In this document: positions 4,185 through 33,959 of the stretch, piece after piece | Position numbering within the stretch: position 1 is the first letter of the stretch | Layout: every line of letters begins with the position of its first letter | Source: Lysobacter sp. K5869 | GTDB lineage: Bacteria > Pseudomonadota > Gammaproteobacteria > Xanthomonadales > Xanthomonadaceae | Length of the DNA: 64,000 nt | Assembly (NCBI RefSeq): GCF_018847975.1 | Contig: NZ_CP072597.1 | Coordinates: forward strand, 1,054,001 to 1,118,000 | Reading direction: 5' to 3' | Notes under the pieces: generated by a model | The model's database searches: none | Seen by the model: the letters and a program-made list of their open reading frames with translations, nothing else | Told to the model about the DNA's origin: nothing | Translations under genes and position numbers: made by a program

Positions 4185-4512
4185 GACAGGCTCGCAAAGA
4201 TAACGACGAAAGTGGACCGCCGATTCTAGCGGCGCACCCGAGTCAGGGTCAAGCCTTTGTCCCGATTGGGATTCCCGATCCGCGACGGACGCCACCGAAG
4301 CGGCCGGGGACAGCCTGTGTACGAGCTGTGCATGAACCTGTGGATTAGTCCTGTTCCGAACCCGGCCTCGGTGGTAGTCTGACCGACCCCCCGGCTTCCT
4401 GCGTCGCGATGTGCGCATCGTGCGTTGGGCCGCTTTCGTCCGTCGCCGGCGCTGTCGCCGCCGCGGCCGACCGCATCGCGCAGCATCACGCATAAAAGAA
4501 GACACGCTACAG
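4185..4512. promoter_or_regulatory. Divergent promoter region rpmH / dnaA
   Basis: A 328-bp gap between the divergent rpmH and dnaA starts. It contains one near-consensus DnaA box, TGTGGATTA at 4339-4347 (one mismatch to the complement of TTATCCACA), which could support DnaA autoregulation. No convincing -35/-10 pair was identified by eye. An open frame continues upstream of the chosen dnaA start but is Arg-rich and lacks similarity to DnaA. Confidence 0.6.
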
Positions 4513-5865
4513 ATGGAAGCCTGGCCCCGCTGCCTCGAACGCCTTGAAGCCGAGTTCCCGGTCGAGGACGTGCATACCTGGTTGAAGCCGCTGCAAGCCG
4601 CGCAGCGCGACAGCAAGACCGTGCTCTACGCGCCCAACGCGTTCGTGGTCGAGCATGTGCGCGAGCGCTATCTCTCGCGCATCCGCGAATTGCTTTCGTA
4701 CTTCGCCGGCAGCGAAGACGTCAGCCTGGAAGTCGGCTCGCTGCCGCGCTCGCCGGCCAGCACCCAGCCGTTGCCGCTGGAACCGGTGGCGAGCGTGGTG
4801 CGGCAAACGCCGGCCGCGGTGACCGCGCCGGTCGAACCGTTCCAAGGCAATCTCGATACGCATTACACCTTCGATAATTTCGTCGAAGGCCGCAGCAACC
4901 AGCTCGGCCGCGCCGCCGCGTGGCAGGCCGCGCAGAAGCCGGGCGAGCGCGCGCACAATCCGCTGCTGCTGTACGGAGGCACCGGCCTCGGCAAGACCCA
5001 CCTTATGTTCGCCGCCGGCAACGCCATGCGCGACGCCAATCCGGCGATGCGGGTGATGTACCTGCGTTCGGAACAGTTCTTCAGCGCGATGATGAAAGCG
5101 CTGCAGGACAAGACCATGGATGCGTTCAAGCGCCAGTTCCAGCGCGTCGACGCGCTGCTGATCGACGACATCCAGTTCTTCGCCGGCAAGGACCGCACCC
5201 AGGAAGAGTTCTTCCACACCTTCAATGCGCTGTTCGACGGCAAGCAGCAGATCATCCTGACCTGCGACCGCTACCCGCGCGAAGTCGAAGGCCTGGAGCC
5301 GCGGCTCAAGTCGCGCCTGGCCTGGGGCCTGTCGGTGGCGATCGAGCCGCCGGACTTCGAGACCCGCGCCCAGATCGTGATCTCCAAGGCCAAGGAACGC
5401 GGCGCCGCGATCCCCGAGGAAGTCGCCTTCCTGCTGGCCAAGAAGATGCGCTCGAACGTGCGCGACCTGGAAGGCGCGCTCAACACCCTGACCGCCCGCG
5501 CCAACTTCACCGGCCGCGCGATCACCGCCGAGTTCGCCCAGGAGACCCTGCGCGACCTGCTGCGCGCCCAGCAGCAGGCGATCGGCATCCCCAACATCCA
5601 AAAGACCGTGGCAGACTACTACGGCCTCCAGATCAAGGACTTGTTGTCGAAACGGCGCACGCGTTCGCTCGCCCGTCCGCGCCAGGTGGCTATGGCGCTG
5701 ACCAAGGAACTGACCGAACACTCGCTGCCGGAGATCGGCGATGCCTTCGCCGGTCGCGACCACACGACCGTTCTGCACGCCTGCCGTCAGATCCGCACCC
5801 TCATGGAAACCGACGGCAAGCTGCGGGAAGACTGGGACAAGCTGATCCGCAAGCTCAGCGAGTGA
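4513..5865 (+). CDS. dnaA: Chromosomal replication initiator protein DnaA
   Basis: 450 residues. DnaA binds 9-bp DnaA boxes, oligomerises in its ATP form and melts oriC. Domain I is at the N-terminus ([20 protein letters not shown]), followed by a short variable linker and the AAA+ domain with Walker A GGTGLGKT (about residues 155-162) and Walker B LLIDDIQF (about 215-222). Domain IV carries the DNA-binding signature [14 protein letters not shown] (about 414-427). The ATG at 4513 was chosen because the protein then begins with the conserved domain I; the longer frame from 4411 adds 34 Arg-rich residues unlike the family. The abundance of DnaA boxes at 18.7-21.7 kb makes this protein the presumed ligand of that array. 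Confidence 0.98.
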
Positions 5866-6598
5866 TCCGCGGCGCCCGATCGACGGGCGCCGGCCTCGGC
5901 CTGGGATGCGCGGCAGCGCCGACGGCGCGATCCCGACATCGCGCTGCCGGCCGCGTCGCGCGGCCCGCGCCAACGCTGGCGCCGCACGTCCGGCTTTCTG
6001 GCCGGCGAACCGGCCGCGAATTTCCGCTCAGCCCAGGGGCCAGCGCCTCGTTTGCGTTGGGCGGCGCCTAGCCGGACTCCACGACGACGAGCGCGACGCA
6101 GCGGCGCGGCCTTCCGGTCGGCCCGCGGCCGTCCGCGCTCATCCGTAGAGATCGCAGGACCGCAGCATCGAGGCCGGGCGGGGGTTTCGGCGTTGGCGGT
6201 GTCGCTCATCCAGCGGAACCGGCAGGCCAGACGCTCGCGCGGCTCGCGATGGCGGAAGTCCATTGGCTCCGGCGTCTCGGGGTCCGCTTGGACACTTCGT
6301 CGCCGGTGGACACAAGGTAATGGCTAAGTTGCTGATACGAAAGGCATAAGTTGGGGGACTAGATTCGTACAAGCTGTGGATAAAGTTGACGCCGCGCGAC
6401 CGCGCCGCAGTTATCCACAGGATCTACCGGTCCTCCAGGGCCAGTTCTACCCGCTTTTGAAGTACCGAAAAATAGTTGTAAATCAAAGGCTTAAGTCGGT
6501 TTTCAACCGTTTTTCGCCGCTCCACCGCCACTAAGCTTTTGATTTATACATCTCTTTTGTAATTGGGCTTGCGCCCACCGACCGGCCAAGGGGTCCGC
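5866..6598. other. oriC: Predicted chromosomal origin of replication (oriC), dnaA-dnaN intergenic region
   Basis: This 733-bp gap carries two perfect DnaA boxes in opposite orientation, TGTGGATAA at 6375-6383 and TTATCCACA at 6411-6419. An AT-rich stretch follows from about 6454 to 6570 in an otherwise very GC-rich region, a good candidate unwinding element. Genes on both sides point away from it (mnmE to rpmH on minus, dnaN to gyrB on plus). Only two perfect boxes were seen, few compared with the array at 18.7-21.7 kb. The first 300 bp after dnaA are GC-rich and hold nothing recognisable. Function as origin is inferred from position and sequence, not shown. Confidence 0.8.
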
Positions 6599-7699
6599 AT
6601 GCGTTTCAGCCTGCAACGCGAAGTTTTTCTCAAGCCGTTGGCCCAAGTGGTCAATGTCGTCGAACGCCGGCAGACCTTGCCGGTCCTCGCCAACCTGCTG
6701 GTGCAGGTCAAGGACGGCCAGTTGTCGCTGACCGGCACCGATCTGGAAGTCGAAATGATTTCCCGGGTCAACGTCGACGACGCGAAAGACGGCGAAACCA
6801 CGATTCCGGCGCGCAAGCTGTTCGAAATCGTTCGCGCCCTGCCCGACGGCAGCAAGGTCACCGTGAGCCAGGCCGCCGAGAAGATCACCGTGCAGGCCGG
6901 CCGTTCGCGCTTCACCTTGTCGAGCCTGCCGGCCAACGACTTCCCGTCGATCGACGAAGTCGAAGCCACCGAACGCGTGCGCGTTCCAGAAGCCGCGCTC
7001 AAGGAGCTGATCGAACGCACCGCGTTCGCAATGGCGCAGCAGGACGTGCGCTATTACCTCAACGGTCTGCTGTTCGATCTGCGCGAAACCAGCCTGCGCT
7101 GCGTCGCCACCGACGGCCACCGTTTGGCCTTGTGCGAAGCGCCGTTCGAAGGCGGCGCGCAGACCAAGCGCCAGATCATCGTGCCGCGCAAGGGCGTGCA
7201 GGAACTGCAGCGTTTGCTCGAAGGCGGCGATCGCGAGGTCGAGCTGGAAATGGGCCGCGGCCACATCCGCATCAAGCGCGACGATGTGACCTTCACCAGC
7301 AAGCTCATCGACGGCCGTTTCCCCGATTACGAAGCCGTGATTCCGATCGGCGCCGACCGCGAAGTGCGGATCGAGCGCGAAATCCTGCGCGCGTCGCTGC
7401 AGCGCGCGGCGATTTTGTCGAACGAGAAGTACCGCGGCGTGCGCATCGAAGTCTCGCCGGGCCAGCTCAAGATCAGCGCGCACAACCCGGAACAGGAAGA
7501 AGCGCAGGAAGAAGTCGAAGCCGACACCAAGGTCGACGACCTGGCCGTGGGCTTCAACGTCAACTACCTGCTGGACGCCCTGACCGCGCTGCGCGACGAG
7601 CACGTGGTGCTGGCGCTGCGCGACGCCAACTCGTCGGCGCTGGTGCGCGAGGCCTCGAACGAGCGTTGCCGCCATGTGGTGATGCCGCTGCGGCTCTGA
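6599..7699 (+). CDS. dnaN: DNA polymerase III subunit beta (sliding clamp)
   Basis: 366 residues, the standard length for the beta clamp. The clamp dimer encircles DNA and tethers polymerase III, and it also drives regulatory inactivation of DnaA with Hda in other proteobacteria. The sequence starts MRFSLQREVFLKPLAQVVNV and ends with the conserved VMPLRL tail. The ATG at 6599 is preferred over a start at 6563, which adds 12 residues not found in the family. It is followed by a terminator at 7739-7771, so recF is probably transcribed separately at least in part. Confidence 0.98.
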   Translation: MRFSLQREVFLKPLAQVVNVVERRQTLPVLANLLVQVKDGQLSLTGTDLEVEMISRVNVDDAKDGETTIPARKLFEIVRALPDGSKVTVSQAAEKITVQAGRSRFTLSSLPANDFPSIDEVEATERVRVPEAALKELIERTAFAMAQQDVRYYLNGLLFDLRETSLRCVATDGHRLALCEAPFEGGAQTKRQIIVPRKGVQELQRLLEGGDREVELEMGRGHIRIKRDDVTFTSKLIDGRFPDYEAVIPIGADREVRIEREILRASLQRAAILSNEKYRGVRIEVSPGQLKISAHNPEQEEAQEEVEADTKVDDLAVGFNVNYLLDALTALRDEHVVLALRDANSSALVREASNERCRHVVMPLRL

Positions 7700-8038: not shown

Positions 8039-9124
8039 ATGCACGTAACCCGCCTGGACGCCCGCGGCCTGCGCCGCTTCGCCGACGTAAGCCTGTTGCC
8101 GGCGCCCGGGATCAACCTGATCACCGGCGAAAATGGTGCGGGCAAGACCAGCCTGCTCGAAGCCCTGCATCTGATGGCGTACGGCCGCAGCTTCCGCGGC
8201 CGGGTTCGGGACGGGCTGATCCGGGCTGGCGATCCGGCCTTGGAGGTGTTCGTCGAATGGCAGGAAGCCCGCCGCGATCAACGCCGCAAGGCCGGACTGC
8301 GCCACAGCGGCCAGGATTGGGTCGGCCGGCTCGACGGGGCCTCGGTGTCCCAGCTCGGCGAACTCTGCGCCGCGCTGGCCGTCGTGAGTTTCGAGCCCGG
8401 CAGCCATTCCCTGATTACCGGGCCGGGCGAAATCCGCCGTCGTTACCTCGATTGGGGTTTGTTCCACGTGGAACCAGACTTCACTCCGCTGTGGCGGCGT
8501 TACACGCGGGCGCTCAAGCAGCGCAATGCCCTGCTCAAGGCTCGCGCCCGCGACGGGCAGCTCGATGCCTGGGATCGGGAGTTGTCCGAGGCCGGCGAAC
8601 CGTTGAGCCGCCGTCGCCAGCAGTATCTGGACGAGCTCCAACCCCGATTCGCCGCCTTCGCGACCGAACTGGCGCCCGGATTGGGGGCGATCCGCCTCGA
8701 TTACGTCCCCGGCTGGCGCCGCGACGAGTTTCCGCTGGCCGATGCTCTGCTGCTGGCCCGCGAGCGCGATCAGCAGCAAGGCTTTACCTCGGTCGGCCCG
8801 CATCGCGCGGATTGGCGGATCGGCTACGGCGGGATTCCGGGGCGCGAGGCCTTGTCGCGCGGGCAGGCGAAGCTGGTCGCCCTGGTCGCGTTGCTGGCCC
8901 AGGCCGAGCAACACGCCCAAATCCAGGGCGAATGGCCGGTGATCGCGTTGGACGATCTGGCCTCCGAGCTGGATCGCAAGCATCAGCGCCGGGTCTTGGA
9001 GCGGCTGATCGCCAGCCGGGCCCAGGTTTTCATCACCGGGACGGAGGCGCCGCCCGCGCTGGCCGAGATGCAGGTCGAGATCGCTCGGTTCCACGTGGAA
9101 CATGGAACCTTGAAGCCGGAATGA
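8039..9124 (+). CDS. recF: DNA replication and repair protein RecF
   Basis: 361 residues, the usual length. RecF is an SMC-like ATPase that, with RecO and RecR, loads RecA at single-strand gaps. Walker A is GENGAGKT (about residues 30-37), the ABC signature lies at LSRGQAKL (about 273-280), and Walker B with the D-loop is VIALDDLASELD. Two parS palindromes fall inside the coding sequence (8460 and 9087) and are read in the same frame both times, giving the peptide FHVE. Next to dnaN and two genes before gyrB, as in most gammaproteobacteria. Confidence 0.97.
   Translation: MHVTRLDARGLRRFADVSLLPAPGINLITGENGAGKTSLLEALHLMAYGRSFRGRVRDGLIRAGDPALEVFVEWQEARRDQRRKAGLRHSGQDWVGRLDGASVSQLGELCAALAVVSFEPGSHSLITGPGEIRRRYLDWGLFHVEPDFTPLWRRYTRALKQRNALLKARARDGQLDAWDRELSEAGEPLSRRRQQYLDELQPRFAAFATELAPGLGAIRLDYVPGWRRDEFPLADALLLARERDQQQGFTSVGPHRADWRIGYGGIPGREALSRGQAKLVALVALLAQAEQHAQIQGEWPVIALDDLASELDRKHQRRVLERLIASRAQVFITGTEAPPALAEMQVEIARFHVEHGTLKPE
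8460..8475. promoter_or_regulatory. parS: parS-type ParB binding site 2 (inside recF)
   Basis: TGTTCCACGTGGAACC, one base from the full 16-bp consensus and with the perfect 14-bp palindromic core. It lies within recF codons for LFHVEP. Confidence 0.92.
9087..9102. promoter_or_regulatory. parS: parS-type ParB binding site 3 (inside recF, near its 3' end)
   Basis: GGTTCCACGTGGAACA with the perfect palindromic core, in the last 13 codons of recF (RFHVEH). Confidence 0.92.
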
Positions 9125-18688: not shown

Positions 18689-19015
18689 GGTGCGGTCGCG
18701 GAGTCTGGGGATAACTTCGGTTGTGGATAACGGGGCCGGGCGATCGACAGCGAACTGGGGATCGAAGCGGCTAGGAGCCGAAACCGGCATGAAATCGGCT
18801 ACGGGGCGTGCCGCTGCGCTGAAGAGCCGCCGGGCTTGTGGATAAGAGCGCGGTTGAGCGGGCCTGGAAGCGTTGGTGCGTATGCCTCGCGATGGGTGGC
18901 TCCATGCGTCGCAGCCGGACCTCAAAAGTTTCGCCCTCAGCGGGGCGCTTGCGGACCGGCCCGCCGCGGGACTAACGTGAAACCGGGTATCCCGCCCCAA
19001 GGATGGAGGTAGCTC

Positions 19016-19420
19016 ATGGCCGTTTCCGCGTACTCCGCTGCTGGCCGGTTCCGCAACGACACCGTTGCCGAGATCAACGTGACCCCGCTGGTCGATGTGA
19101 TGCTGGTGCTGTTGATCATCTTCATGGTGACGGCGCCGGCGCTGACCGGGCAGCTCAAGCTCAGCCTGCCCTCCCCTAACCCGCACCCGGACAAAGAACT
19201 GCCGAAAGCCGAGTTGAGCGTGCAGCAGGACGGCAGTTTCGTTCTCGACGGCCGCTCGCTGACGCGCGCGCAGTTGTCCACAGCGCTGACGGCGCTGGCC
19301 GCGGAAAATCCCGACACCGTGTTGAGCGTGGACGCCAACGCCGATGCCGACTATCAGGCCTTCGCGCACGCGCTGGCCGCCGCCGATGAGGCGGGCATCC
19401 GCAATTTGTCGACGAAGTAA
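19016..19420 (+). CDS. ExbD/TolR-family protein (third copy)
   Basis: 134 residues with the family layout: one transmembrane helix ([20 protein letters not shown]) with the proton-relay Asp, then a periplasmic domain (VQQDGSFVLDGRSLTRAQLS). The ribosome-binding site is GGATGGAGGT. It lies 388 bp after the other exbD genes, behind their terminator and two DnaA boxes, so it is separately transcribed. No ExbB/TolQ partner accompanies it; it may share the ExbB at 16987. One exact DnaA box (19274-19282) lies within its coding sequence, which makes the array overlap a real gene. Confidence 0.92.
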   Translation: MAVSAYSAAGRFRNDTVAEINVTPLVDVMLVLLIIFMVTAPALTGQLKLSLPSPNPHPDKELPKAELSVQQDGSFVLDGRSLTRAQLSTALTALAAENPDTVLSVDANADADYQAFAHALAAADEAGIRNLSTK

Positions 19421-19462
19421 AACGCCACGCGCGCCGCGCGTTCGCGGCGATACGGAATCGAA

Positions 19463-19490
19463 GACGGCTGCCTAATGGGCGGCCGTTTTC
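19463..19490 (+). terminator. Probable terminator after the third exbD
   Basis: Imperfect stem ACGGCTGCC / GGGCGGCCGT around loop TAAT, followed by TTTCGTTT, about 45 bp after the stop codon. Confidence 0.6.
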
Positions 19491-20547
19491 GTTTGCATGG
19501 AAGCGGCCGTTATCCACAGCGGAAACGGATTTTGAGTTTGATCCACGGGCGGTCGGGTATGCGACGCTCGCTTTTTTAGGCAGGCGAAAGCGCTTATCCA
19601 CACGGGCCGTGTGCCAGCGGATCGAGAAGAAACCGGCGGCCAACGCGTCGGCTGGATGCTCAGCGTGCCTTGTGCATAACCTGCACCGGCGAACCTCATG
19701 ACGGGCCGTCGACGACGCGAATGCCGCGGCGCCGTGGCACTCGCGAATACAAGGCTGAGGTCGACGGACAAGGCCCGTCTTATCCACAATGCATATCGCG
19801 GGTCGAGGTCGCAGTGAGCCGACTATCCGTGCGCGCGCGAGGTACGGTTGTGCATAAGTGAGTTCGTCTGCGCACGCGCTTAGCGCACTCGACAAGAGCG
19901 CGGTTCGATTGTCCACAGACCTGCGAACCACATTGCGGATGCGCGTCCGCCCGCAAGAAGCAGCCCATAAGCGGCATCGCGCCAACGGTGTCCGAACACT
20001 TGTCCACACCGAAATCCGCACCGTGCCGAACCCCCAGAAAACGCCTGAAAACAGCGGGTTTCGCGAGGGGCGCGCGAAGACTTATGACAAGACTTGTCCA
20101 CAACCCTGAGGGACGTCGTCCCTGGCGCGGATCATCGACCGCTGCGCGATGGTGAGCGGTCCATCGCAAACGGCGGCGGACACTTGTCCGTATCGGTCGT
20201 GACGGCGACGAAAGCGAGTCTCGGCGCGTGCGGGGTTGCGTATGCACCTGTCCACACGCGAGCGAGGATGCGCGGGCTTCTGGCGGGAAGCGCGTCAAGA
20301 TCGATGCCGAACCGGGGCGTACGCAGAACCAGCAGGCCGTTCGATATCCACAGCGAAGTCTCGTCGCCGGGTTCGGCTCGGCCGACGCATTTGTCCACAG
20401 GTGGAAAGATGCGCGCAGCCCGTCGTCCGGCGGCGATCTTGGTGGCATCGAATGAACGTCTCCTCTCGCTATTGCGCAGCGGCTTATCCACAAACGGGGC
20501 GAACTCGGGGCGCATATCGCGTGGAGACGGGCGTCGGCGCGCGGGTG

Positions 20548-20565
20548 TTATCCACATGTGGATAA
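20548..20565. promoter_or_regulatory. Head-to-head double DnaA box, perfect 18-bp palindrome
   Basis: TTATCCACATGTGGATAA: two exact consensus boxes abut with no spacer and opposite orientation. It is near the centre of the DnaA-box array and the only such pair in the window. Confidence 0.95.
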
Positions 20566-21192
20566 GCGGCGCGCGCGTGGCCGCGGCGCGGGATGAGGGC
20601 CGCGTGCGCAAATGGATCGCCAGCCTGAGGTAAACCGATGGATGTCGCTCTGCGCAACACCGCATCGGCTGTTGTCCACAAGCCGAGTGGGTTCGCTGCA
20701 TCAGGTGGCGGCGGTGCGAGGGGGTGTCCGCAGGGACTCGTGCCGATGCATTCGTACGCGTCGAAACCTCGCCGGCCAAAAAACGGCACCGGCGTTTGCC
20801 CACAGCGTCATTAATACGGCTACTCCGAGCTGTTCTCGAAAAACGGATTGCGCAACCCTCGCTCGATAGGCGCGCTCGCCGCGCGCGCGGTTTGTCCACA
20901 AAGATCGCAGCGCGCGACAACGCGCCGAAACGCTTTGCACGACGCGTTCCGCGCCCGCGTCGCGAAATGTTGTCCACAAGAGATCAGCGACGCGGGCGTC
21001 GCGAACATCCGCGGGATCCCGCGTGCGCACGACGACTCACAGAAGCGCCGCTAAGACCGGTTATGCACAGGCGATATCAACCACTTCGCCGAGCGCGGCC
21101 GTGTGCATTTCCGAGCCCAAGGCATCGCCGCTTGTCCACAAGCGCGAAGCCGACACACCGCGCGCCGCTTTCGCGATGCCATCGGCGCACGC

Positions 21193-21720
21193 AGTGGATA
21201 AGTCGATGCATTGCCTATGCGGCGCCAGCACCGTCTAAAACGAACTCAGATTGTGCTTGTCAGCAAACCGCCAGGCATCGCTGCTGCCGTCGCAACCCGC
21301 GTCCACGGTGGATAAGTCGAACGCCTACGAGTGGCGGCGCGGCAATCGCCGAAATGGACGCGGACCGCGCTCATCGCCGAATAGCCGGACATCGCCGCTT
21401 TCGCGTCGCAACGCGCGCCCACAGTGGATAAGTCGCACGCCTAGGAGCAGCGGAGAGGCAGTCGTAGAAACGAGCGTGGACCATGCCCACCACCCGATAG
21501 CCGCGTCGCACTGCTTCTGCGTCTTAGCTAACGCGCGCAGTGGATAAGTCGAACGGCCACGAGCGGCAGAGCGGCAGAGCGGCAATCATCGAAACGAACG
21601 CGGATCGTGCTCAGCGCCAATAACCGCACCGCTTCCGCGTCTTAGCCAGTGCGAGCAGTGGATAAGTCGAACACCCCGCGAACGCAGGGCGCGATCCGCC
21701 GCGACGCCGCGAACCGCGCT
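21193..21720. repeat. Degenerate ~116-bp tandem repeat, each unit headed by GTGGATAAGTCG
   Basis: Five units start at 21193, 21307, 21423, 21539 and 21657 (steps of 114, 116, 116 and 118 bp). Each begins (A/G)GTGGATAAGTCG, usually followed by AACGCC or a variant, and shares scattered blocks such as CGAAA, GGACC/GGATC and GCGTC further in. The head is a minus-strand DnaA box with one mismatch (TTATCCACT or TTATCCACC). The last unit runs into the 3' end of pdxJ. Confidence 0.85.
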
Positions 21721-22475
21721 CAGCGGCTCGCCGCGATCACTGCCAGGTAGCCGCGCACCGTAGCGTCGAGACCGTCGTACAAGGCCTCGCCGATCAAGGC
21801 ATGCCCGATCGACACTTCCAGCACGTTCGGCACCGCGCGCAGGAACGCGCCGAGGTTGGCCTGGCTGAGGTCGTGGCCGGCGTTGACGCCCAGGCCCACC
21901 GCTTGGGCGCGGCGCGCGGCGGCGGCGAATTCGGCCAGCGCCGCGCTGGCGTCGCCGGCGGCGAAGGCTTCGGCGAACGGGCCTGTGTACAACTCGACGC
22001 GTTGCGCGCCCAGTTCGGCGGCGCGTTCGATGCCGTCGCGGTCGGCGTCGGCGAACACGCTGACCCGGCAGCCGAGTTCGTGCAGTTCGGCGATGCGCGG
22101 GCGCAGCGCGTCGGCATCGCGTTCGAAGTCGAAGCCGTGGTCGGAGGTGATCTGGTCGTCGCCGTCGGGCACCAGCGTCGCTTGCGCGGGCCGGGTCTGG
22201 CGGCACAGTTCCAACATGCCGGGGTAGCCCGCGCGCGGCGGCGCGAACGGGTTGCCTTCGATGTTGAATTCGATGCCGCGCGCGTGGGCCAGTTCGGCCA
22301 ACGCATAGACGTCGTAGTCGCGGATGTGGCGCGCGTCGGGACGCGGGTGGACGGTGATGCCGTGGGCGCCGGCGTCGAGGCAGGCGCGCGCGGCGCGCAC
22401 CACGTCCGGCTCGGAACCGCCGCGCGAGTTGCGCAGCACGGCGATCTTGTTGACGTTGACGCTGAGGACGGTCAT
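21720..22475 (-). CDS. pdxJ: Pyridoxine 5'-phosphate synthase PdxJ
   Basis: 251 residues. PdxJ condenses 1-deoxyxylulose 5-phosphate with 3-amino-2-oxopropyl phosphate to give pyridoxine 5'-phosphate, the last ring-forming step of the DXP-dependent vitamin B6 pathway. A TIM-barrel sequence with the family motifs: [67 protein letters not shown] and [11 protein letters not shown]. Full length. Its 3' end converges on the DnaA-box array. Confidence 0.98.
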
Positions 22476-22540: not shown

Positions 22541-22549
22541 TGTGGATAA
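22541..22549 (-). promoter_or_regulatory. Isolated exact DnaA box upstream of pdxJ
   Basis: TGTGGATAA (complement of TTATCCACA), 66 bp upstream of the pdxJ start codon and so inside its likely promoter region. Confidence 0.7.
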
Positions 22550-22852: not shown

Positions 22853-23154
22853 TGCGGCGTGCTCCCTGACGAAAACGGCGTTCCCCTGTCCGGGCCGGTC
22901 GCGTCGAGGCGCCCGGCCGGGGCCTCGAACGGGCCCGGGTCCGAGTGTAGCGCGCGTCGGTGCAGGCCACAGCCGGCGCGGTGCGCGGCTTGCGACCGCC
23001 GGCACATCGGGGTGGAACAGCGGCTGGGTGGGGCCGGGCTGAATGCGGCGGCGGTTGAGGGACGGTCGCGGCTTCGGGCGTTCGGCGCGGGATTGAAGGC
23101 TTGCGGAGGGGCACGCGCGGCAACGCGTTCGTGCGTGTGGCTGCGAAGTCCGAC

Positions 23155-23369
23155 TGTAGGAGCGGCGTAAGCCGCGACTGCGACATCGGGCGTCCGGCGC
23201 AAGATTGAAGTCCCTCGGTCGCGGCTCACGCCGCTCCTACTGGGGTGCGTGTGGCGGCGTGTTCGTGGCCGCGAGGTCCGTCTGTAGGAGCGGCGCGAGC
23301 CGCGACTGCGACATCGGGCGCGCGTCGCGAGCTTGAAGTTTCGCGGTCGCGGCTCGCGCCGCTCCTACA
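23155..23369. repeat. Two REP-like inverted pairs, TGTAGGAGCGGCG family
   Basis: Pair 1: arms at 23155-23178 and about 23215-23240. Pair 2: arms at 23283-23306 and about 23342-23369. They occupy the gap between the small membrane protein and the cardiolipin synthase; the rest of the gap (22853-23154) shows nothing recognisable. Confidence 0.88.
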
Positions 23370-23444
23370 GGGAGCGTTCGAGACAACGCCGAAGGGGGCG
23401 CAACCGCGAGATTCGAGGGAAGGAACGACGCGTTCGGCGGCGGC

Positions 23445-26438: not shown

Positions 26439-26451
26439 GTCGCGGGTCGGG

Positions 26452-26930
26452 TGTGGATAACCGGTTTTCGCGCGGAGCCGGGTGTTCGACGGTAGGAGCG
26501 GCGTAAGCCGCGACCGCGAAACCCGGGTGCCGGCGCGAGCGTGAAACCTCGCGGTCGCGGCTTGCGCCGCTCCTACAGGGGGCGGCCCAGCCGGCGTCGG
26601 CTCGGGTTGTGGATAACCGGGTTTTCGCGCGGAGCCGGGTATCCGACGGCAGGAGCGGCGTAAGCCGCGACCGCGAAACCCGAGTGCCGGCGCGAGCGTG
26701 AAGCCCCGTGGTCGCGGCTTGCGCCGCTCCTACAGGGGGCGGCCCAGCCAGCGTCGGCTCGGGTTGTGGATAACCGGTTCCCGCGTGGAGCTGGGTTTCC
26801 GACTGTAGGAGCGGCGCGAGCCGCGACCGCGAAACCCGGCTGCCGGCGCGAGCGTGACACCCCGCGGTCGCGGCTCACGCCGCTCCTACAGGGGGCGAAC
26901 CGGGCCTGCGTCGGATCGGGCTGTGGATAA
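26452..26930. repeat. 157-bp tandem repeat combining a DnaA box and a REP pair
   Basis: Units start at 26452, 26608 and 26765 (steps of 156 and 157 bp), and a fourth partial unit starts at 26922. Each opens with TGTGGATAACC, an exact DnaA box on the minus strand. Inside each is a REP inverted pair: arms at 26491-26518/26550-26578, then the same layout in units 2 and 3. The units are about 90% alike by eye. The pattern means DnaA box and REP pair were duplicated together. Confidence 0.95.
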
Positions 26931-27047
26931 CCCGCTTCCGCAGCGGCCGGGAGCCCGCCAAACGCCGGCTCACGGCGCCGCCCGATCCCGCGCCGAAACC
27001 CCCGCTCCGACCCTACAAACCGCGCAAAATAGAACGCTGAACAATCT

Positions 27048-27209
27048 TGGGGATAAGTGCCTGCCCGCGATGTGCGTAAAACGCGCAAACCGAACGCCGG
27101 TGCGGGTTTCCCTGAATGGGGCGCTTGGGGATAACTGCTGTCGATAAGCCAAGACTCGTTCATCTTCCTGGCTAGTTGTCCACACCCCGCCGCGCAGCGG
27201 TTATCCACA
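27048..27209. promoter_or_regulatory. Satellite DnaA boxes before the radical SAM gene
   Basis: Two exact boxes on plus (TTGTCCACA 27176-27184 and TTATCCACA 27201-27209) and two TTATCCCCA variants on minus (27048-27056 and 27126-27134). The rest of the gap 26931-27264 shows nothing else. Confidence 0.75.
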
Positions 27210-28375: not shown

Positions 28376-28448
28376 TGTGGATAGATCGCCGCGCGCGCGG
28401 AGCGCGGCGCTTATCCACACGAAGCGCTAAGCGGCGCGCTTATCCACA
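28376..28448. promoter_or_regulatory. DnaA boxes after the radical SAM gene
   Basis: Exact TTATCCACA at 28411-28419 and 28440-28448 (29 bp apart, same strand), and a relaxed TGTGGATAG at 28376-28384. These are the last close matches noticed when moving away from the origin, apart from isolated weak ones. Confidence 0.75.
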
Positions 28449-33478: not shown

Positions 33479-33881
33479 GTCGTAGGCGCGGCGTAGGCCG
33501 CGACCGCGGGATCGCAAGGTCGCGCCGTCGACCGATTTTCGCGGTCGCGACTCGCGTCGCTCCTACGGTCGCCCCGCCGCAACAACGACGCCATCGGGAA
33601 CGCTCCCTGTAGAAGCGACGCAAGTCGCGACCGCGAAGTCACAAGCGCGCGCCGCAACCCACGATTCGCGGTCGCGGCTCACACCGCTCCTACAGCTGCA
33701 ACAACGAGGCCATCGGGAACGCCCCTTGTAGGAGCGGCGTAAGCCGCGACCGCGGAGCCGCAAGATCGCGTCGTCGAGCAATTTTCGCGGTCGCGACTCG
33801 CGTCGCTCCTACAGTCGCCCCGCCGCAACAACGACGCCATCGGGAACGCTCCCTGTAGGAGCGACGCAAGTCGCGACCGCG
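33479..33881. repeat. Run of seven REP-like arms in a ~245-bp duplicated block
   Basis: Arms, alternating in direction, lie at about 33479-33508, 33540-33567, 33608-33636, 33667-33695, 33727-33755, 33785-33813 and 33854-33881. The whole block repeats with an offset of about 245 bp: the spacer text GCCCCGCCGCAACAACGACG occurs at about 33570 and 33815. The hairpin cores differ (GCGGC-GTAA-GCCGC and GCGAC-GCAA-GTCGC) with compensatory changes that keep the pairing. Confidence 0.9.
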
Positions 33882-33959
33882 GGGTCAGAAGCTCGCGCCG
33901 CAACCCACGATCCGCCATCGCGCCCCACCCCTCGCCCACAACACCCGATACCCACCAAC

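Follow-up and report, generated by a model that had tools for sequence, protein, structure and literature searches.

An origin-proximal array of twenty DnaA boxes in Lysobacter sp. K5869, a candidate site of DnaA titration

Introduction

Initiator titration is an old model, and here we describe a candidate locus for it, an array of DnaA boxes at positions 18706-21665 of a 64-kb stretch (C1:1054001-1118000; the window) of the 5.97-Mb single-contig genome of Lysobacter sp. K5869 (G000). Among the closest described systems are the DnaA-box clusters (DBCs) of Bacillus subtilis, which lie outside oriC and are thought to hold free DnaA; deletion of six of them is described as causing early initiation, strongly so only when all six are gone (Okumura 2012, as cited in PMC5295017). 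Elsewhere the same review states that clusters with significant regulatory roles were not identified in this organism. Clusters in B. subtilis and Streptomyces are also said to repress untimely initiation (PMC5742627). The B. subtilis clusters are dispersed over six places, whereas Lysobacter has one contiguous array of ~20 boxes and an additional five-box cluster, with a role that is predicted. The cluster of Streptomyces coelicolor (Smulczyk-Krawczyszyn 2006, compared here only by its citing description in PMC5742627) is likewise a chromosomal box cluster in a high-GC genome, although in an unrelated phylum. Our best reading is that the Lysobacter array would be both larger and fast-evolving relative to the B. 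subtilis and Streptomyces clusters.

Escherichia coli offers three further comparisons. Boxes are reported to accumulate near oriC, with the chromosome controlling free DnaA (Olivi 2025, PMC12371093), and the gathering of boxes near the origin, in a layout read as favourable for titration, is common to both organisms; however, the E. coli enrichment is described as a broad rise over centisomes 98 to 5, seen with a loose motif, and in Lysobacter it is mostly one array. The authors of that study state that experimental evidence for titration was lacking before their work. The E. coli datA site, as it has been described, is also a non-coding DnaA-box cluster near oriC between convergent units, but its five boxes have conserved spacing and are accompanied by an IHF site, and the Lysobacter arrays have neither a perfect IHF site nor conserved spacing. 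DARS1 and DARS2 are chromosomal DnaA-box clusters too, and share a fixed core that is given as box I, N5, a facing box II, N3 and box III (PMC5742627); this core was not found in the array but was found elsewhere in G000. No description of the Lysobacter array was found in the open-licence PMC literature searched.

Organization of the DnaA-box array

Matches to the strict DnaA-box pattern TTRTSCACA number 31 in the window against 0.37 expected, with a maximum of three in 100 shuffles, and the enrichment far above chance that a first-pass annotation had proposed is borne out. Twenty of these exact boxes (15 plus, 5 minus) lie at 18722-21140, the same figures as that annotation gave; at one mismatch it listed eight boxes, and we count nine clear of any exact one (18706-, 20248+, 20344+, 20796+, 21193-, 21307-, 21423-, 21539- and 21657-). 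Two of the exact boxes are to the left of exbD3, one is within it, and 17 are in the 2299-bp gap between exbD3 and pdxJ. The left group (18706-18845, in the exbD2-exbD3 interval) consists of exact boxes at 18722 and 18837 and the one-mismatch box at 18706, all on the minus strand, and where other species have a left group it is also entirely minus. The third exbD gene (exbD3, 19016-19420, plus strand; ExbD/TolR family, Pfam PF02472, E 2.4e-26) carries the box at 19274, and the description of the array as mostly gene-free is right apart from this gene, which lies inside the array; the main gene-free part is 19421-21719.

The main part of the array (19421-21719; 14 plus and 3 minus exact boxes) fills the gap between exbD3, transcribed rightwards, and the convergent pdxJ gene at its right (21720-22475, minus strand; Pfam PF03740, E 3.3e-82). 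Because it is flanked by convergent genes, gene regulation is unlikely to be the role of this block. There are no matches to Pfam for the three reading frames tried in it (20094-20633+, 20132-20977- and 20724-21431+), and none to Rfam across 4000-30000, that would point to a hidden gene or RNA. The gap includes a perfect palindrome of two boxes, TTATCCACATGTGGATAA, at 20548-20565, and a decayed tandem repeat of ~116 bp (21193-21665, minus strand), with a one-mismatch box (TTATCCACT/C) in each unit; the last five one-mismatch boxes are members of this repeat. Summed over the five arrays described below, exbD3 has 76 plus and 7 minus boxes on its right and 0 plus and 13 minus on its left, a strand bias that may reflect tandem duplication.

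Identity of the sites

The array sites are well supported as DnaA boxes, as first proposed, on three predictive grounds. First, an unbiased count of all 9-mers in the five arrays has as its top words TTGTCCACA (58 copies, 0.12 expected) and TTATCCACA (36 copies, 0.06 expected), and these G and A forms of the box co-occur in the same arrays. Second, when the DNA-binding domain of DnaA (dnaA, 4411-5865, plus strand; identified by Pfam) is aligned to that of E. coli (1j1v), the 11-residue recognition stretch is unchanged. Third, the aligned left box of oriC is TTATCCACA in G000 and G009 and TTGTCCACA in G007, G017, G001 and G005, so that both forms serve at oriC in the genus. Around the 100 exact boxes the flanks have almost no sequence in common beyond a weak preference at the adjoining bases; an ordinary genome-wide repeat was rejected on the grounds that these flanks are unrelated.

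Concentration of boxes around oriC

The dnaA-dnaN gap (5866-6562) is the likely oriC and has two perfect boxes, at 6375 (minus) and 6411 (plus), as previously noted. The array is 12.3-15.3 kb from these, in line with the 12-15 kb first estimated, and thus occupies an early-replicated position. Genome-wide there are 64 exact boxes, and 70 matches to the reversed pattern used as a control; the total is therefore ordinary, and what is unusual is the concentration near oriC, with 37 of the 64 boxes (58%) within 32.4 kb around it (1050024-1082448), which is 0.54% of the chromosome. Outside this zone there are only two groups of five or more boxes, at 5.23 and 5.30 Mb, and these are differently built. 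As well as the array and the two oriC boxes, the zone holds groups at 22.5-28.4 kb of the window, a single box at 1052520, and an upstream cluster of five TTATCCACA boxes (C1:1050024-1050195) ~8 kb before dnaA. Four boxes of the upstream cluster form two same-direction pairs, at distances of 17 and 15 bp, and the fifth stands alone.

Phylogenetic distribution

We compared 20 genomes of the genus including G000, and five of these (G000, G002, G009, G015 and G004, the last being Lysobacter sp. yr284) have an array at the same place, with 20, 24, 18, 16 and 22 exact boxes respectively between exbD2 and pdxJ. In the 14 other members in which the full interval can be read there is no box or one between exbD3 and pdxJ; G018, whose contig ends inside this interval, is outside that count. 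A tree of 19 genus genomes and one outgroup (1911 columns from three genes; G018 omitted for missing genes) places the five array genomes in one clade with support of 99/97, requiring a single change, and the array has been gained once, in one Lysobacter clade. The cluster thus recurs in four sister genomes, a comparison that the first-pass annotation had put forward as a check.

Among 80 named loci around pdxJ, the count is highest in Lysobacter sp. yr284, at 22 boxes in 3 kb, followed by Stenotrophomonas humi with ten and Stenotrophomonas sp. Iso1 with seven; the remaining 77 have at most three, although some of these loci are short. Triple head-to-tail boxes with gaps of 65-95 bp are found in 5/395 genomes of the family, which are the same five (reversed control, 0), and across the phylum in 3/398 (G000, G730 and G500), with the reversed pattern in one (G525).

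The concentration near oriC follows the same division. The origin zone has 37/64 boxes in G000, 38/69 in G002, 33/61 in G009, 30/60 in G015 and 31/51 in G004, and 2/34 and 5/33 in two members without the array (G007 and G017); the genome totals of the five array genomes thus range from 51 to 69, and those of the other 15 from 19 to 41. The upstream cluster has 5, 5, 5, 5 and 3 boxes in the five array genomes, and 0, 0 and 1 in G007, G001 and G017. For the initiator titration model this provides a natural contrast, with a 20-box array present at one locus in some close relatives and absent from others.

A different arrangement is seen in Stenotrophomonas sp. Iso1 (G060), in which 33 of 89 boxes are in 55 kb around dnaA (C1:21326-76307), scattered and with no single array; the 20-kb stretches on either side have 0 and 2 boxes. 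A second Stenotrophomonas genome (G061; contigs C40 and C47) also has many DnaA boxes scattered around the origin, another form of origin-side enrichment. Because Stenotrophomonas sp. Iso1 is also box-rich around dnaA, the family may have gained origin-side boxes on two occasions, each time in a different form.

Turnover of the array

Most 500-bp bins of the window between 4 and 30 kb align with the four sister genomes over 90-100% of their length at identities of 0.69-0.98, whereas those at 19.5-21.5 kb align over only 0-51%. Other poorly aligned bins are at 25.0 kb (0-26%) and, less so, at 18.5, 21.5, 23.0, 25.5, 26.5 and 28.0 kb, with 12.5-13.0 kb in G009. The spacers of the array are close to unalignable though fourfold-degenerate sites remain similar: those of exbB, exbD2 and pdxJ are 82.9-92.5% identical among the five species, and box-masked spacers 43-52% (64.5% for the closest pair, G009 and G004), against a baseline of 41-44% from five shuffles of one pair. 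The best-conserved core (19990-20257, plus strand; boxes at 20000 and 20094 and the near-box at 20248) is alignable in all five species. A motif around box 20094, ACTTATGACAAGACTTGTCCACAA (20080-20103, plus strand), is in all five arrays, with one change in G009, and is absent from all other sequences compared. Within it, amid otherwise diverged array DNA, an inverted repeat ACAAG-A-CTTGT overlaps the box.

We compared the retention of boxes with that of other 9-mers in alignments made after the boxes had been masked, since an unmasked alignment pulls boxes together. Between G009 and G004, 8/13 boxes are in register against 113/1350 other 9-mers (p 2.7e-6), between G000 and G002 5/17 against 39/1513 (p 7e-5), and three further pairs show an excess at p 0.008-0.018. 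The five arrays contain 100 exact boxes and 35 single-substitution forms of the two main boxes; decay at 50% spacer identity would be expected to leave more of the latter than of the former. That the boxes are kept by selection is supported by these comparisons, most clearly in the one alignable species pair. The narrow range of the array totals is only suggestive, with five species.

Tandem sub-blocks are present in G004 (~100 bp x8 and 55 bp x4) and in the window (116 bp x5). Box columns of these blocks are more uniform than spacer columns (97% vs 51% in G004; 100% of eight columns vs 54% in the window), but the comparison is partly circular because the units were cut at boxes, and we do not rely on it.

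Possible functions

On balance it is probable, though by no means assured, that the stretch holds ~20 largely independent DnaA sites in a homotypic array whose role is to titrate DnaA next to the origin, and of the three roles offered by the first-pass annotation titration fits best. Like the titration clusters of the DBC type, the array has boxes outside oriC at far above chance frequency, and near to it. DnaA would bind the array boxes, and the array, lying 12-15 kb from oriC, would be copied soon after initiation, so that the number of strong sites would jump; this would lower free DnaA and damp or delay immediate re-initiation. New boxes would come in part from local tandem duplication, with the spacers then decaying and the boxes being kept, so that site number would be conserved more than positions, and the array is a candidate bacterial case of such conservation of number during positional turnover. 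Hda scores above the curated cut-off in 16 of 21 genomes searched, including G000, and SeqA was not found in G000 by a search whose control found it in E. coli; Hda-type inactivation therefore probably operates, and sequestration by SeqA probably does not.

Several points weigh against titration, of which stoichiometry is the main doubt. DnaA is typically present at hundreds or more per cell, and the array sites are few beside these, so titration would work only if DnaA is scarce or the sites outcompete others. Most Lysobacter do without the array. Tandem duplication, evident from the strand bias and the sub-blocks, can by itself raise the number of boxes. Five of the ten species pairs have no significant in-register excess of boxes, and the tests are not independent as the pairs share species. 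Both DnaA binding and an array phenotype are themselves predictions from sequence.

More tentatively, the array might be a self-renewing DnaA satellite, in which boxes are lost and regained by tandem duplication and decay while selection acts on their total number (16-24 per array). If so, it would act as a tunable counter for the timing of initiation, and one clade, in acquiring some 30 boxes beside the origin, would have made a natural switch toward titration-led replication control.

A neutral satellite, in which tandem duplication near the origin multiplied the box by chance and without a role, is unlikely. The repeated sub-blocks of G004 and the window are what it predicts, as is the strong strand bias on both sides of exbD3, but it does not account for exact boxes among saturated spacers or for their retention in register. 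Moreover, box-poor gaps at the same place can also be long (1208 bp in G005, and 2334 bp in G011, judged by length alone), and the occurrence of the array is matched by that of the distinct five-box cluster 8 kb before dnaA.

It is also rather unlikely that the array acts in regulation as datA or DARS do, by assembling DnaA oligomers that hydrolyse ATP or release ADP. It is, as such a site would be, a non-coding box cluster near oriC, and datA likewise lies downstream of convergent units. However, the perfect IHF consensus WATCAANNNNTTR is absent from all five arrays, with 0-1 matches at one mismatch (E. coli datA's own IHF site was outside the control), and a scan using the geometry of E. coli K-12 DARS found the facing I/II pair with N5 in 0/5 arrays, allowing up to one mismatch per box. 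The absence of this pair disfavours the DARS role first suggested, although a degenerate core could escape, since of the two E. coli sites the strict scan detects DARS1 and fails on the more degenerate DARS2. Spacing provides a further distinction. Median distances between exact boxes, start to start, are 89-141 bp across the five arrays, so that the 60-120 bp first reported was roughly right, and most are at least 47 bp apart, with two closer pairs (9 bp in G000 and 29 bp in G002). When one-mismatch boxes are included there are 1-5 pairs within 30 bp per array, mostly in the same direction and 16-30 bp apart, with one at 13 bp in G009; interacting boxes at E. coli oriC are described as 2-4 bp apart (PMC5742627). 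Finally, the spacings differ among the five arrays, unlike the conserved spacing of datA and DARS.

The facing I/II pair with N5 does occur at 11 places elsewhere in G000 (reversed control, 0). One site of DARS geometry, TGCACA-N3-TTATCCACA-N5-TGTGGATAA, is upstream of priA (TIGR00595, over cut-off) at C1:456423-456454, and this strict pattern, counted irrespective of priA, is in 11 of 121 genomes of the order, in four families, with none for the reversed control. Two tandem arrays with units of ~175-207 bp have five and four DARS-type facing pairs; one is at C1:5227682-5228756 and the other at C1:5297102-5297677, in the miaA/folP gap and in the gap between phosphatase-like and hemJ-like genes, respectively. 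In the latter, each of the four units has at N3 a 9-mer that resembles box III with two mismatches, and similar box spacings are found in G009 and G015.

It is quite improbable that the array contributes to origin architecture, either as an auxiliary part of the origin or as a DnaA-coated tether bridging or positioning the origin region. The same five genomes do have a box group on each side of oriC, one 8 kb before dnaA and the other 12-15 kb beyond oriC, and the array shows a consistently outward strand bias. The array, however, has no AT-rich unwinding element, reaching at most 53% AT per 60 bp as compared to 67% in the dnaA-dnaN gap, and this gap can be aligned between array-bearing species and those that lack the array, which suggests an unchanged main origin. 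A part in initiation, the third role first offered, is disfavoured accordingly, and the array as part of oriC was set aside for want of both an AT-rich element and a perfect IHF site. Use of the sites by a DNA-binding protein other than DnaA is very improbable: TTGTCCACA makes up 58 of the 100 boxes and does not fit the E. coli consensus given as TTWTNCACA (PMC12371093), but this same word is the aligned oriC box in four genus members, the DnaA recognition stretch is identical to that of E. coli, and A and G forms share arrays.

Other features of the window

Downstream of the likely oriC are dnaN (6563-7699) and recF (8039-9124). The only two perfect IHF consensus sites of the window are both in the dnaA-dnaN gap (6481-6493 and 6532-6544), as is its AT-richest 60-mer (at 6456, 67% AT). 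GC skew was uninformative for placing the origin at the scale of the window.

The exact boxes to the right of the array include one at 22541-22549 (minus), four in a 157-bp tandem repeat found by box and repeat scans at 26443-26932 (minus), two at 27176-27209 (plus) and two at 28411-28448 (plus). Tandem repeats with units of 119-157 bp at 23137-23372, 26443-26932 and 33482-33922 have a common inverted-repeat motif, GTAGGAGCG... / ...CGCTCCTAC. These repeats are REP-like by eye, and in the one at 26.4 kb four units each carry an exact DnaA box.

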